From the NCBI GenBank assembly GCA_017399555.1, contig JAFQBW010000054.1, positions 1 through 64,000 of the forward strand: DNA of 64,000 bases. The letters run 5' to 3'. Source of the stretch: Methanocorpusculum sp. (GTDB lineage: Archaea > Halobacteriota > Methanomicrobia > Methanomicrobiales > Methanocorpusculaceae). The notes below the pieces were generated by a model. The model saw only the letters and a program-made list of their open reading frames with translations, was not told the origin of the DNA and made no database searches. Every line of letters starts with the position of its first letter. The stretch's first letter is position 1. The position numbers were made by a program, and so were the translations under genes. Below, in pieces: positions 7,001 to 53,759 of the stretch.

Positions 7001-7314
7001 TGCGTGAGTCGGAGTAATAAGCCTCCTTCTGTTTTTGCGGCATTCGGCTTAGCGTTGTACCCGGACTATTGGATCAGACAGATTCCGTAGCAGTCCTGTT
7101 TCAACTTTCACCCACAGAGATTCGCCGTTCCATCACATTCCCCGACATCAGCGCTCGGCATTCTCTGCCTCATTGCTCCATCGGGAGTGTATCGTTTCTG
7201 TTCCAGAGCTGTGACTCTCGCCACCCGTACTTGCATACGGCTGTGCTGTCTGAGCGGTGGGAGGACTTTCCTCAGCGCATACTGCACCGTCGGCCGCGTG
7301 CTCCCTCTCACGCG
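7001..7314 (-). ncRNA. rnpB: RNase P RNA
   Basis: The minus strand carries the hallmark elements of RNase P RNA. GAGGAAAGTCCTCCC lies near 7276-7262 in the 5' part, and ACAGAA with AGGCTTATTACT lies near the 3' end (about 7038-7013). The ends pair: GCGTGAG (7313-7307) is perfectly complementary to CTCACGC (7008-7002), with a GGAG/CTCC extension, forming helix P1. The RNA is therefore about 313 nt, normal for archaeal type A. It processes the 5' ends of pre-tRNAs. A TATA box lies about 25 bp upstream. ORFs crossing this interval are shadows. Confidence 0.92.
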
Positions 7315-12079: not shown

Positions 12080-12211
12080 AGATGGTAATTCACGGCGGGA
12101 AAATATGAAGTTTTTGGTTTCTCTAAGATACGTTTCAGTACAAAAAAAGATGAGTATTTCTTACAACCGCCATTTTTGAAAAAGGTATCATGAACACTTA
12201 TTTGAACATAA

Positions 12212-12398
12212 GATATTTCCACCGCGAGCCGCCGTCGCAAGCCTACGGCTTGCTCATGGCTCGAGCAAGCTCTCGCCCCGCGCCGGAGTCGCGGCTCCGC
12301 ACCCCGAAATATATAATAAAGCAATCCCAAGTATTATTTCTTGAAATAGGGGTGCGGGGCGGCGACTCCGGCGCGGAGCCGCCCGCGGTGGAAATATC
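12212..12398. repeat. 187-bp palindromic MITE-like element
   Basis: Perfect 15-bp terminal inverted repeats, GATATTTCCACCGCG at 12212-12226 and its complement at 12384-12398, bound a GC-rich palindrome. Inside, GCGCCGGAGTCGC and GCACCCCGAAAT-type blocks recur in inverted order around an AT-rich centre at about 12306-12348. A smaller hairpin GCAAGCC/GGCTTGC lies in the left arm. The element stands out in base composition from its AT-rich flanks and encodes nothing. I found no clear target-site duplication. Confidence 0.65.
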
Positions 12399-12492
12399 CT
12401 CTTTTTTTGGGTAAAGTGATGAGAATGAACATAGTCAAATCATGCTCTATGAAGTATAGTATTTTGAAAAATAGGGGTTGTTAGAAATCCTC

Positions 12493-12626
12493 AATAATTT
12501 AATCGAGGTTCAGTCTCTGCTACACGCCCGTATCCCCGCGACGCCTAATGGGCATGCGGATACTGCGTCTCCTTAGCCCAAATATTGTGAGAAAAAAAAA
12601 AAATAATTTAATCGAGGTTCAGTCTC
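12493..12626. repeat. 3'-end duplication of the MATE gene around a small structured element (locus A)
   Basis: A 25-bp sequence containing the last 19 bp of the MATE gene occurs twice, at 12493-12517 (copy) and 12602-12626 (native). Between them lie 84 bp that include CGCCCGTATCC (12525-12535), GCATGCGG (12552-12559), CTTAGCCC and a run of 12 A. Inverted repeats GACGC/GCGTC and GTATCC/GGATAC lie within. The same core motifs and the same arrangement recur at the tbp gene (52794-53160). Confidence 0.75.
12592..12603 (-). terminator. poly-T terminator of the MATE gene
   Basis: A run of 12 A on the plus strand gives U12 on the transcript, 5 nt after the MATE stop codon. Oligo-U tracts are the usual archaeal terminators. 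Confidence 0.6.
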
Positions 12627-13978
12627 AGTTTCATCCAGGAACCTCTCTTGTAGAAGAAGAGGTCAACAAGGAAGACCACAACAGAACCAACGACAATAGC
12701 GAACCAGATCTGCTCGATTGGATGTCCGGTCATCATCAGAATTGCAGAAAGACCTGCCTGTACGATAACCTGTCCGGTGATTGCCGCATACATACCTGGT
12801 CTTGTAGCACCTGCACCATTCATTGCAAATCCCATCGTCATTCCCATAGCGATAACGAAATAGGAGAACGGTACAATCTGCATGAATGAAATTCCAATTT
12901 CAAGAGAGGCATCCGTTGCGCCGAAGAATCCAAGGAGATACGGAGCGGTAAACAGATAGAGCACTGCAACACCGAGCATGAAGATAGCGTTGGCCGTTAC
13001 CGCATAGCGGACAGTCTTTTTTGCACGCTCCGGCTTGTTAGCTCCTAAATTCTGACCGACCATAACAGCCACACCGGAACATAATCCCATAGCGACGATT
13101 AAGCCGAGCATATCAAGTCTGATACAGATACCGTAGGCTGCGATAGCCGCCTCGCCGTATGCAGCGATAATTACCATCATTAAGACCATTGCAAAGCTTC
13201 TGATACCGCTCTGCACGGCAGACGGAATGGCAATTACAAAAATATCCTTTACCAGACGCGGCTCGAAGGTAAACTTCTTCGGGAACTTGATTGGACCGTA
13301 TTTGTGCTTCGGCAGGAAGTACATACAAAGAATCAGCAGAATAACACCCACTGCTCTGGACGAGAGGGATGCGTATGCAGAGCCTGCAAGCCCCATAGCC
13401 GGGAAAATCCAGAGACCCTGAATTAAGGTCGGGTTTAAGATAATATTGACGATGTTGACGCCGACCATCACAAACATCGGCGTTCTTGAATCACCAGTAC
13501 TCTGGAAAACGGTCGTCAGCGTCATCAAAAGCATCATAATGAAATTACCCATCAGTGCCGGACGCAGGAACTTTGCCCCTTCTTCCGCAAGGGCTGCATC
13601 TCCCTGACTCATAAAGTACAGAATATCCTCAGACCAGAAAAATCCGATAACTGCCAGGATAACGCTGAAAATCAAACCAAGGTAAATTGCATGAGCCAAC
13701 ACAACCTGAATTCTTTCATATTTTTCGGAACCGTACGCCCGGGAAACGAACGCAGCGGTAGCGGTTACTATACCCATAAGCACAGTCGTTAAGACCATGA
13801 TAACCGATACACTTAACGTTCCGCCGGCGATAGAAGTATCACCAAGCTCACCGATAAAGTGCATATCAACAACCTCCAGAACGCTCTGGAGCATGTTGCT
13901 GATAATAATCGGCAGGGCAATAATGAGGAGGGCTTTTCCTACATTACCGTCCGTTAATGTATTCTTGTGTTCACTCAT
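12608..13978 (-). CDS. MATE-family multidrug efflux transporter
   Basis: This 456-residue integral membrane protein has 12 predicted helices in two homologous halves. Typical MATE features are the N-terminal LIIALPIIISNMLQSVLEVVDMHFI stretch (about 17-41), given here only in outline, and FQSTGDSRTP near 165. MVGQNLGANKPERA (about 318) is the conserved 'GxxxGA..' segment after the second-half helix. MATE proteins export cationic drugs or metabolites using a proton or sodium gradient. The gene is monocistronic, and its 3' end is duplicated downstream at 12493-12517 (see the repeat). Confidence 0.9.
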   Translation of the reverse strand: MSEHKNTLTDGNVGKALLIIALPIIISNMLQSVLEVVDMHFIGELGDTSIAGGTLSVSVIMVLTTVLMGIVTATAAFVSRAYGSEKYERIQVVLAHAIYLGLIFSVILAVIGFFWSEDILYFMSQGDAALAEEGAKFLRPALMGNFIMMLLMTLTTVFQSTGDSRTPMFVMVGVNIVNIILNPTLIQGLWIFPAMGLAGSAYASLSSRAVGVILLILCMYFLPKHKYGPIKFPKKFTFEPRLVKDIFVIAIPSAVQSGIRSFAMVLMMVIIAAYGEAAIAAYGICIRLDMLGLIVAMGLCSGVAVMVGQNLGANKPERAKKTVRYAVTANAIFMLGVAVLYLFTAPYLLGFFGATDASLEIGISFMQIVPFSYFVIAMGMTMGFAMNGAGATRPGMYAAITGQVIVQAGLSAILMMTGHPIEQIWFAIVVGSVVVFLVDLFFYKRGSWMKLRLNLD

Positions 13979-52793: not shown

Positions 52794-53160
52794 GATACAA
52801 AAATTCAGCAAAAAAAAAAAGAATAGAGTTTTTCCGGTTATTTCTGCTCTGCAAGAACGTCCTTGATGCTTCCCGCCCGTATCCGCCCCGGGAGCCTGAG
52901 GAGCATGCGGCTCAAAGAGCCTTAGCTCCAGGAAAATCAGGATACAAAAATTCAGCAAAAAAAAAGAATAGAGTTTTCCGGTTATTTCTGCTCTGCCAGA
53001 ACGTCCTTGATGCTTCCCGCCCGTATCCGCCCCGGGAGCCTGAGGAGCATGCGGCTCAAAGAGCCTTAGCTCCAGGAAAATCAGGATACAAAAATTCAGC
53101 AAAAAAAAAGAATAGAGTTTTTCCGGTTATTTCTGCTCTGCAAGAACGTCCTTGATGCTT
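52794..53160. repeat. tandem 3'-end duplications of tbp with a structured element (locus B)
   Basis: Two units of 147 bp (52794-52940) and 144 bp (52941-53084) precede the native end of tbp (53085-53160). Each unit contains a copy of the last 34 bp of tbp with its stop codon and the A-run terminator (76 bp in all). An element of about 70 bp follows with CGCCCGTATCC, GCATGCGG and CCTTAGCTCC. The units differ from each other at only a few positions. The element core matches that at 12493-12626. Open frames across this stretch are shadows of the repeat. Confidence 0.85.
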
Positions 53161-53693
53161 GCCTCTAATACATCAAGTCCCTTCTTGACATCGGTTAAGT
53201 TCTTACCGCCGGTTAAGATAATCTTTCCGGAGGAGAAGAGGAGAGCAACAATCTTCGGGTCCTTGATTCTGTAGACAAGTCCCGGGAACTGTTCCGGCTC
53301 GTACTCGATTGCTTCTAAGGAAAGTTTTGCAACAACGCGGTTTAAGTTGATGAAGCGGCCGATATCGTAAGAACAGACAATGTTAGTGACTGCTACCTTC
53401 GGGACCGGGAGAATATTGACGCCTGCCTCCTTTAAGGAAGAGAGAACCTTGTTTAATCCCTCGCCTAAGGACTCCTCGTTTCTGATACCGGTTAAAACAA
53501 CCTTACCGGAGGAGAAGATAAGCGATGCCATACGCGGTTCATCGATACGGTAAACTGCTCCCGGGAAGCGCTTGGTATTGAGTTCACATCCTTCAATCTT
53601 GCTGGAAATCTCTGCAAGATCAATCTCGTCAGCGATAACACCGGACGCAACAATATTTTCAATCTTCAGAGAAGAATATGCATTTCCATCCAT
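53127..53693 (-). CDS. tbp: TATA-binding protein
   Basis: ATG 53693 gives 188 residues, the standard archaeal length; an earlier in-frame start at 53738 would add 15 residues with no homology. Two direct repeats of the TBP fold are visible: IENIVASGVI with the later FPGAVYRIDEPRMA, and VTNIVCSYDIG with FPGLVYRIKDP. Two phenylalanine/serine DNA-contact strands read LIFSSGKVVLTG and LLFSSGKIILTG. It recruits TFB and RNA polymerase at archaeal promoters. Its 3' end has been duplicated downstream (see locus B). Confidence 0.97.
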   Translation of the reverse strand: MDGNAYSSLKIENIVASGVIADEIDLAEISSKIEGCELNTKRFPGAVYRIDEPRMASLIFSSGKVVLTGIRNEESLGEGLNKVLSSLKEAGVNILPVPKVAVTNIVCSYDIGRFINLNRVVAKLSLEAIEYEPEQFPGLVYRIKDPKIVALLFSSGKIILTGGKNLTDVKKGLDVLEASIKDVLAEQK

Positions 53694-53759
53694 GTTTATA
53701 TTAATGGAGTGGGGGAGACCATAATACTTCCGTGTCAACTCCCTTATAAACCCTTTAAA

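Follow-up and report, generated by a model that had tools for sequence, protein, structure and literature searches.

A short covarying hairpin with long flanking target repeats, a probable mobile DNA element of one Methanocorpusculum clade

Results

A hairpin insert between duplicated gene ends

The stretch of DNA analysed here (the window, 64,000 nucleotides of contig C49 in the source genome G000, a 2.02-Mb assembly of 67 contigs) contains a MATE family transporter gene whose 3' end is duplicated. A repeat search recovered an exact 25-bp direct repeat (AATAATTTAATCGAGGTTCAGTCTC) with 84 bp between its copies (Table 1), which bears out the original prediction that the last 19 bp of a gene and its downstream bases had been copied. 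As the MATE reading frame lies on the minus strand, these 19 bp of the right copy are the gene end with its stop codon, and the intact 3' end (12608-12626) falls within that copy. Alignment to the empty site of a sister species (G018) showed that the left copy in fact extends to about 12519-12521. We refer to the hairpin insert as X and to the flanking duplicated target segment as A.

The X core also occurs twice at the gene for TATA-binding protein (tbp), where the segment 52794-53163 reads copy-element-copy-element-copy, and again 3' of a tRNA-Leu on contig C6 (a tRNA identified by reading the sequence, without a tRNA finder). Within the window, CGCCCGTATCC was found exactly at 12525, 52874 and 53018; with one mismatch allowed there were 4 matches against 0.91 expected, a count reached by none of 100 shuffles. 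The MATE and tbp inserts share CGCCC..., GCATGCGG and CTTAGC in the same order, as had been claimed. The first part of the MATE insert tail is similar to the tails at three lipoprotein loci (L102, L118 and L134). Tandem A-X-A-X-A arrangements were present at five loci (tbp, L080, L081, L105 and L073).

Table 1. Features of the window, with positions, strand and the basis of each assignment.
Feature	Position	Strand	Basis
Archaeal RNase P RNA	7006..7309	-	187.8 bits
Larger insert containing element Y	~12150..12490		
Element Y (surroundings 12225-12390)	12235..12255	-	
Left copy A1 of target (duplicated MATE gene end)	12493..12517	.	Repeat search, G018 empty site
Core of hairpin element X, MATE	12525..12583	+	57-position model R1, 73 bits
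Conserved 5' arm CGCCCRTAT[GC]CCCGCGACGCCT, at MATE CGCCCGTATCCCCGCGACGCCT	12525..12546	+	Alignment
Outer stem, 5' arm TGGGC	12549..12553	+	Alignment, covariation
Internal loop 5' side ATGC, invariant	12554..12557	+	Alignment
Inner stem-loop GGATAC-TGC-GTCTCC, hypervariable yet covarying among copies	12558..12572	+	Alignment, covariation, orthologue comparison
Internal loop 3' side TTA, invariant	12573..12575	+	Alignment
Outer stem, 3' arm GCCCA	12576..12580	+	Alignment, covariation
Insert 3' tail, AATATTGTGAG then A run	12581..12601	+	Locus comparison
Right copy A2 of target	12602..12626	.	Repeat search
MATE family transporter gene (PF01554)	12608..13978	-	ORF and family match
tbp 3' end and downstream sequence, first copy	52794..52873	.	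Repeat search, flank alignment
tbp locus, element X copy 1	52874..52932	+	60.8 bits
tbp 3' end, second copy	52941..53017	.	Repeat search, flank alignment
tbp locus, element X copy 2	53018..53076	+	60.8 bits
Third, functional copy with the real tbp 3' end	53085..53163	.	Repeat search
TATA-binding protein gene (PF00352)	53127..53738	-	Family match

Another element, Y, lies close to the MATE insert and consists of two adjacent hairpins, GAGAGCC-NNN-GGCTC and GAGCAAGCC-NNN-GGCTTGCGAC. The exact pattern of the second hairpin occurs in 11 of the 25 genus genomes, some of them without X, and Y was found inserted inside X copies (L115, L073 and L141, compared with L087, L084 and L137). In the window, Y sits inside a longer insert that is bounded by inverted ends (GAGGATTTCTAACAACC / GGTTGTAAGAAATACTC) and looks like a MITE; the G018 MATE locus lacks this insert. 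X, or X plus Y, was also seen inside a further multi-copy repeat (AAAACAGTTTGGATAATTTTAGACATGCA...) at L093, L110, L114 and L115, and several copies of this repeat sit at contig ends (C4, C12, C14 and C17 of G006).

Copy number and distribution

X is about 55-85 bp long. A looser pattern recovered 12 copies in its own genome and more in 5 of 24 congeners, with stem covariation visible by eye. The original prediction had proposed searching the genome and its relatives with a covariance model, and the model that we built from 27 copies (R1) matched 29 copies in G000, 13-24 in each of five sister genomes (G006, G009, G010, G018 and G023) and zero in 27 other family genomes. An order-level scan of 232 genomes gave matches in seven, namely these six and a seventh with a single weak 26-bit hit. 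The six X-bearing genomes form one clade as far as the MATE protein shows: it is 90-100% identical across the five that yielded the gene and at most 70% identical in the next-nearest genomes. When other species and viral contigs were scanned with patterns, the matches listed included no convincing X outside the genus, and among the scanned contigs listed, strong R1 scores were limited to those of Methanocorpusculum. Two X copies lie on one contig titled Lachnospiraceae (JAFVSN010000055.1), which matches G018 at 92% identity over 862 bp; by its sequence, it is misbinned Methanocorpusculum DNA. Within one genome, non-tandem copies are mostly less than 90% identical and seldom above, so that no near-identical donor of recent date can be seen, and this holds for the recent MATE insertion too.

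Flanking repeats and empty sites

Flanking repeats were called by local alignment of 150 bp on each side (score of at least 12.5). Of 97 X copies, 62 had such a repeat, whereas mispaired controls gave 3 in 288. Counted by independent locus, the figure was 36 of 56, compared with 41 of 2000 random genome positions (2%); about a third of X loci have none. The repeats are locus-specific and 13-139 bp long, the left A normally ending 0-10 nt before CGCCC and the right A normally starting from -3 to about 24 nt past the outer stem. At some loci X lies upstream of a gene and the duplicated segment holds a promoter and start codon (L122, L080/L136, L085 and L117). Flanking A copies, unlike most non-tandem X copies, can be identical. 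Each species with the L095/L108 locus has two identical A copies there, but their sequence differs from one species to the other, which points to recombination between them. Such recombination probably keeps the A copies alike, and it would also explain the tandem arrays and exact loss of X.

Comparison of orthologous loci, also proposed at the outset, identified sites that lack the insert. A single MATE end, followed by unrelated sequence without X, is present in G018, and G009, G010 and G006 likewise have one end only. One filled against four empty species favours a gain in the G000 lineage. At L122, G006 has X between two copies of a 48-bp promoter-plus-start segment, whereas G018 has one 48-bp A and no X, and single-copy sites of like kind were found for L134, L112, L142 and L085. 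(The G018 sequence was covered as stretches totalling 1.455 Mb, and absence of X in this genome holds for those stretches.) At tbp, G018 and G010 carry X or X/Y insertions at positions of their own, and G006 and G009 have none. In the G018 orthologue of L121 (C4, about 100493-100563), another hairpin (GGGCATAAGCCCAAGGGCTTAGCCC) lies between the same flanking repeats that enclose X in G006.

The many unlinked loci, the empty sites in relatives and the locus-specific duplications together uphold the proposal of a small mobile or copying element. The arrays at five loci could instead suggest simple local tandem duplication of gene ends, unrelated to X, but repeats are far commoner next to X than at random sites, and relatives that lack X have just one A, making this explanation extremely unlikely. 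One caution applies to movement of X in trans: a site with one A could also arise from recombination between two A copies that deletes X.

Junctions and gene boundaries

The 5' junction shows a TNYY preference in the 52 independent loci compared: T occupies -7 in 38 (p 6e-13), pyrimidines occupy -5 in 47 and -4 in 45, and G is very rare. L085, with TGAG, is an exception. We considered a fixed spacing from start codons (ATG+2) as a targeting rule and rejected it, as these sites are mostly TNYY themselves (TGCT, TGCC and TGTC, within ATGCT, ATGCC and ATGTC).

Eight sense copies lie exactly 1 nt past a stop codon without a flanking repeat, reading T/RAN-CGCCC. They include formyltransferase and aEF1B loci common to two species (names read from the sequence). 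G018 sites that lack X read TAA at this point, so the final two letters of the stop codon appear to come from X. These copies, together with those 3' of the same tRNA-Leu in four species, are what would be expected if X were chiefly a regulatory hairpin (a terminator or 3' UTR stabiliser) retained by selection, with its mobility old and its positions reflecting selection. We consider this unlikely. The 1-nt spacing is explained by the native stops in G018 and the RAN at the 5' end of X, numerous copies lie antisense, sit upstream of promoters or are missing in sister species, and the stems show no G-U excess even in sense copies (see below).

For genes on the right that face X, 10 of 15 independent loci have a right repeat whose start is no more than 4 nt from the stop codon, and in many the two coincide (stops were taken from open frames of 80 codons or more). 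The suggestion that X targets gene 3' ends describes some loci; others have X after tRNA-Leu, beside duplicated promoters and starts, or between genes with no direct repeat. Restoration of the gene end, also suggested, is expected of any target duplication, though a repeat edge at the stop codon is commoner than expected. In convergent loci, conversion biased by selection, with erosion confined to the non-coding part of A, could contribute to this edge.

The conserved structure of X

The X consensus consists of CGCCCRTAT[GC]CCCGCGACGCCT, 2 nt, an outer stem (NNNGC/GCNNN), the loop ATGC/TTA, and an inner stem of 3-6 pairs with a short loop; at MATE, 5 of 6 inner pairs form. Across 105 distinct rows, 92.3% of stem cells are paired and the covariation score is 0.476, compared with 0.120 for shuffled alignments and 0.165 for the best slid version, and 194 cells show changes on both sides, compared with 46.5 in shuffles. 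This alignment was fitted to the model, and an independent MAFFT alignment of 27 rows gave the same picture. Orthologous X copies differ by 25 two-sided Watson-Crick changes and 14 one-sided ones. The original prediction of inverted repeats that differ and yet are kept is right for the outer and inner stems. The pairs that it matched, GACGC/GCGTC at MATE and GGAGC/GCTCC at tbp, are not homologous: GACGC belongs to the constant 5' arm, which includes GCGACGCCT, and the true MATE outer stem is the one in Table 1.

Two nested covarying stems are therefore conserved, as had been suggested, but their pairing does not look like that of an RNA. Selection on RNA predicts G-U on one strand. The stem pairs comprise 782 Watson-Crick, 11 G-T and 17 A-C, and a G-T excess is absent from both sense and antisense copies (6 G-T and 11 A-C in sense copies; orientations from lists compiled by hand). 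Near-pure Watson-Crick stems without strand bias indicate that the structure acts as DNA, or that the arms are copied from each other. Rfam models at gathering and permissive thresholds gave nothing at X beyond chance matches. Folding single inserts as RNA gave weak z-scores (-0.75 to -2.1), and the structure is thus argued from covariation. A pseudoknot between CCGTAT of the 5' arm and ATGCGG was dropped because the common CCCATATCC variant is unpaired. The constancy of the internal loop and the 5' arm argues that something recognises X.

Search for mobilising machinery

Y1 transposases (PF01797; IS200/IS605, RAYT) were found in 0 of 25 genus genomes, several of which are incomplete, with controls positive in 5 of 14. 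Neighbour clustering of the genes beside X copies, few of which were run against the family library, gave genes of ordinary cellular function and none recognised as a mobility gene. Reverse transcriptases were present in G000, G009 and G018, and also in three genomes without X; the search found none in the incomplete assemblies of G006, G010 and G023. Neither enzyme is supported as the one shared by X-bearing genomes, Y1 having been found in none of the 25 and reverse transcriptases being patchy. The G000 and G009 reverse transcriptases (L422 and L423) adjoin proteins resembling the targets of diversity-generating retroelements, and look like the enzymes of such elements.

Target-primed reverse transcription of X as an RNA, a route that can yield target duplications of variable length, would fit the variable repeats, the A run that precedes the right copy at MATE and the reverse transcriptases of the three genomes. 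We regard it as very unlikely, considering the distribution and apparent type of these enzymes, the lack of G-U tolerance in the stems and the inconsistency of the A tail.

Discussion

Our preferred interpretation, to which we assign a probability of roughly 55%, is that X is a non-autonomous mobile DNA hairpin of one Methanocorpusculum clade that inserts in trans with long, variable target duplications. A protein acting in trans would recognise the folded X DNA, and the target strands would be broken tens of bases apart, with the upper break just after TNYY. Joining of X and filling of the long gaps would leave the stretch between the breaks on both sides, as A-X-A. Later recombination between A copies could expand this to A-X-A-X-A, homogenise the A copies, or remove X and one A exactly. 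Insertions would survive mainly where the neighbouring gene stays whole, with one A carrying its end, or its promoter and start.

The main rival is replication template switching with no dedicated enzyme; we infer the mechanism of insertion in both. Here, a nascent strand would leave the target at TNYY microhomology, copy X at another locus until the hairpin halts synthesis, and re-enter the target upstream to recopy A, with arm-to-arm copying keeping the stems perfectly paired. The failure to find Y1 transposases in 25 genomes or recognised mobility genes next to X is in line with this, as is the resemblance of flanking bits in the MATE X to the lipoprotein-locus copies. The pair at A2 columns 39-106 (64 GC, 24 CG, 7 UA and zero mismatches) is as arm-to-arm correction predicts. 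However, arm correction alone would not keep the ATGC/TTA loop and 5' arm constant in nearly all copies, and the 5' end of X is sharp across loci, and we find this account rather doubtful.

Within the trans-mobilised reading, we offer tentatively, as a possibility that we would not lean on, that a novel system recognises the folded hairpin with its ATGC/TTA loop and breaks the target at points tens of bases apart, one of them following TNYY and the other often falling at a stop-codon edge, with the inner hairpin rewritten by arm-to-arm copying during movement. If so, most insertions would carry a duplicate of the adjacent gene boundary.

Very small, transposase-free mobile hairpins have been described in mitochondria and in some bacteria, which raises the question of how they move. 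For the archaeal X family, several close genomes are available, empty sites are clear, each event is marked by a long duplication, and there are a junction motif and a covarying DNA structure, which makes the question testable. Its junctions show where strands were cut, and its restriction to one clade narrows the search for an enzyme. X also shows a route to duplicated gene ends and promoters in a small genome, and is a case of strong covariation that is no evidence for RNA.

Comparison with known systems

The long, variable repeat of X is unlike that of most transposases. IS1634/IS1549 insertion sequences make long, variable target duplications, as X does, but X is under 90 bp and has no terminal inverted repeats. 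The latter, with duplications of 13-139 bp in place of a fixed short length, also separates X from class II MITEs. Integron attC sites are folded DNA with variable covarying stems and conserved unpaired bases, features that X shares. The A segments beside X differ in being local target copies, not cassettes, and the integrase boxes RYYYAAC/GTTRRRY were not seen in the X consensus. A structured RNA family is a poor fit, as X has no curated Rfam match and shows 11 GT against 17 AC in about 810 pairs. The cyanobacterial small dispersed repeats of Elhai and colleagues, to which PMC3116915 refers, are reportedly tiny dispersed hairpins with nested insertions and no known enzyme; X is alike in these respects. 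It differs in its long flanking duplications, for which those repeats are not known.

REP and REPIN sequences are short, imperfect intergenic hairpin repeats that are present in many copies, clade-specific and without a gene of their own (PMC3116915, PMC3733652). X is likewise a short extragenic palindrome in many copies. It differs in that the 25 genus genomes, several of them incomplete, yielded no RAYT (Y1_Tnp), in its long flanking direct repeats, which lie outside the REP definition, and in its 5' arm, which ends in GCGACGCCT with no GTAG or CGTC tag at the palindrome foot (read 5' to 3'). Mitochondrial GC clusters and double-hairpin elements are very short, GC-rich mobile hairpins of compact AT-rich genomes that undergo rapid substitution and merging by an unsolved mechanism (PMC4478555, PMC2800124). 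X resembles them in being short, mobile, GC-rich and without its own gene, a comparison of how they work that makes no claim of homology. Flanking repeats are just 2-3 bp (AG or ACT) at GC clusters (PMC4478555) and absent from the Allomyces elements (PMC2800124), compared with 13-139 bp at X, whose host is an archaeon. We regard X, which departs from GC clusters in repeat length and from REPs in RAYT and tag, as a variant of the short mobile hairpin kind.
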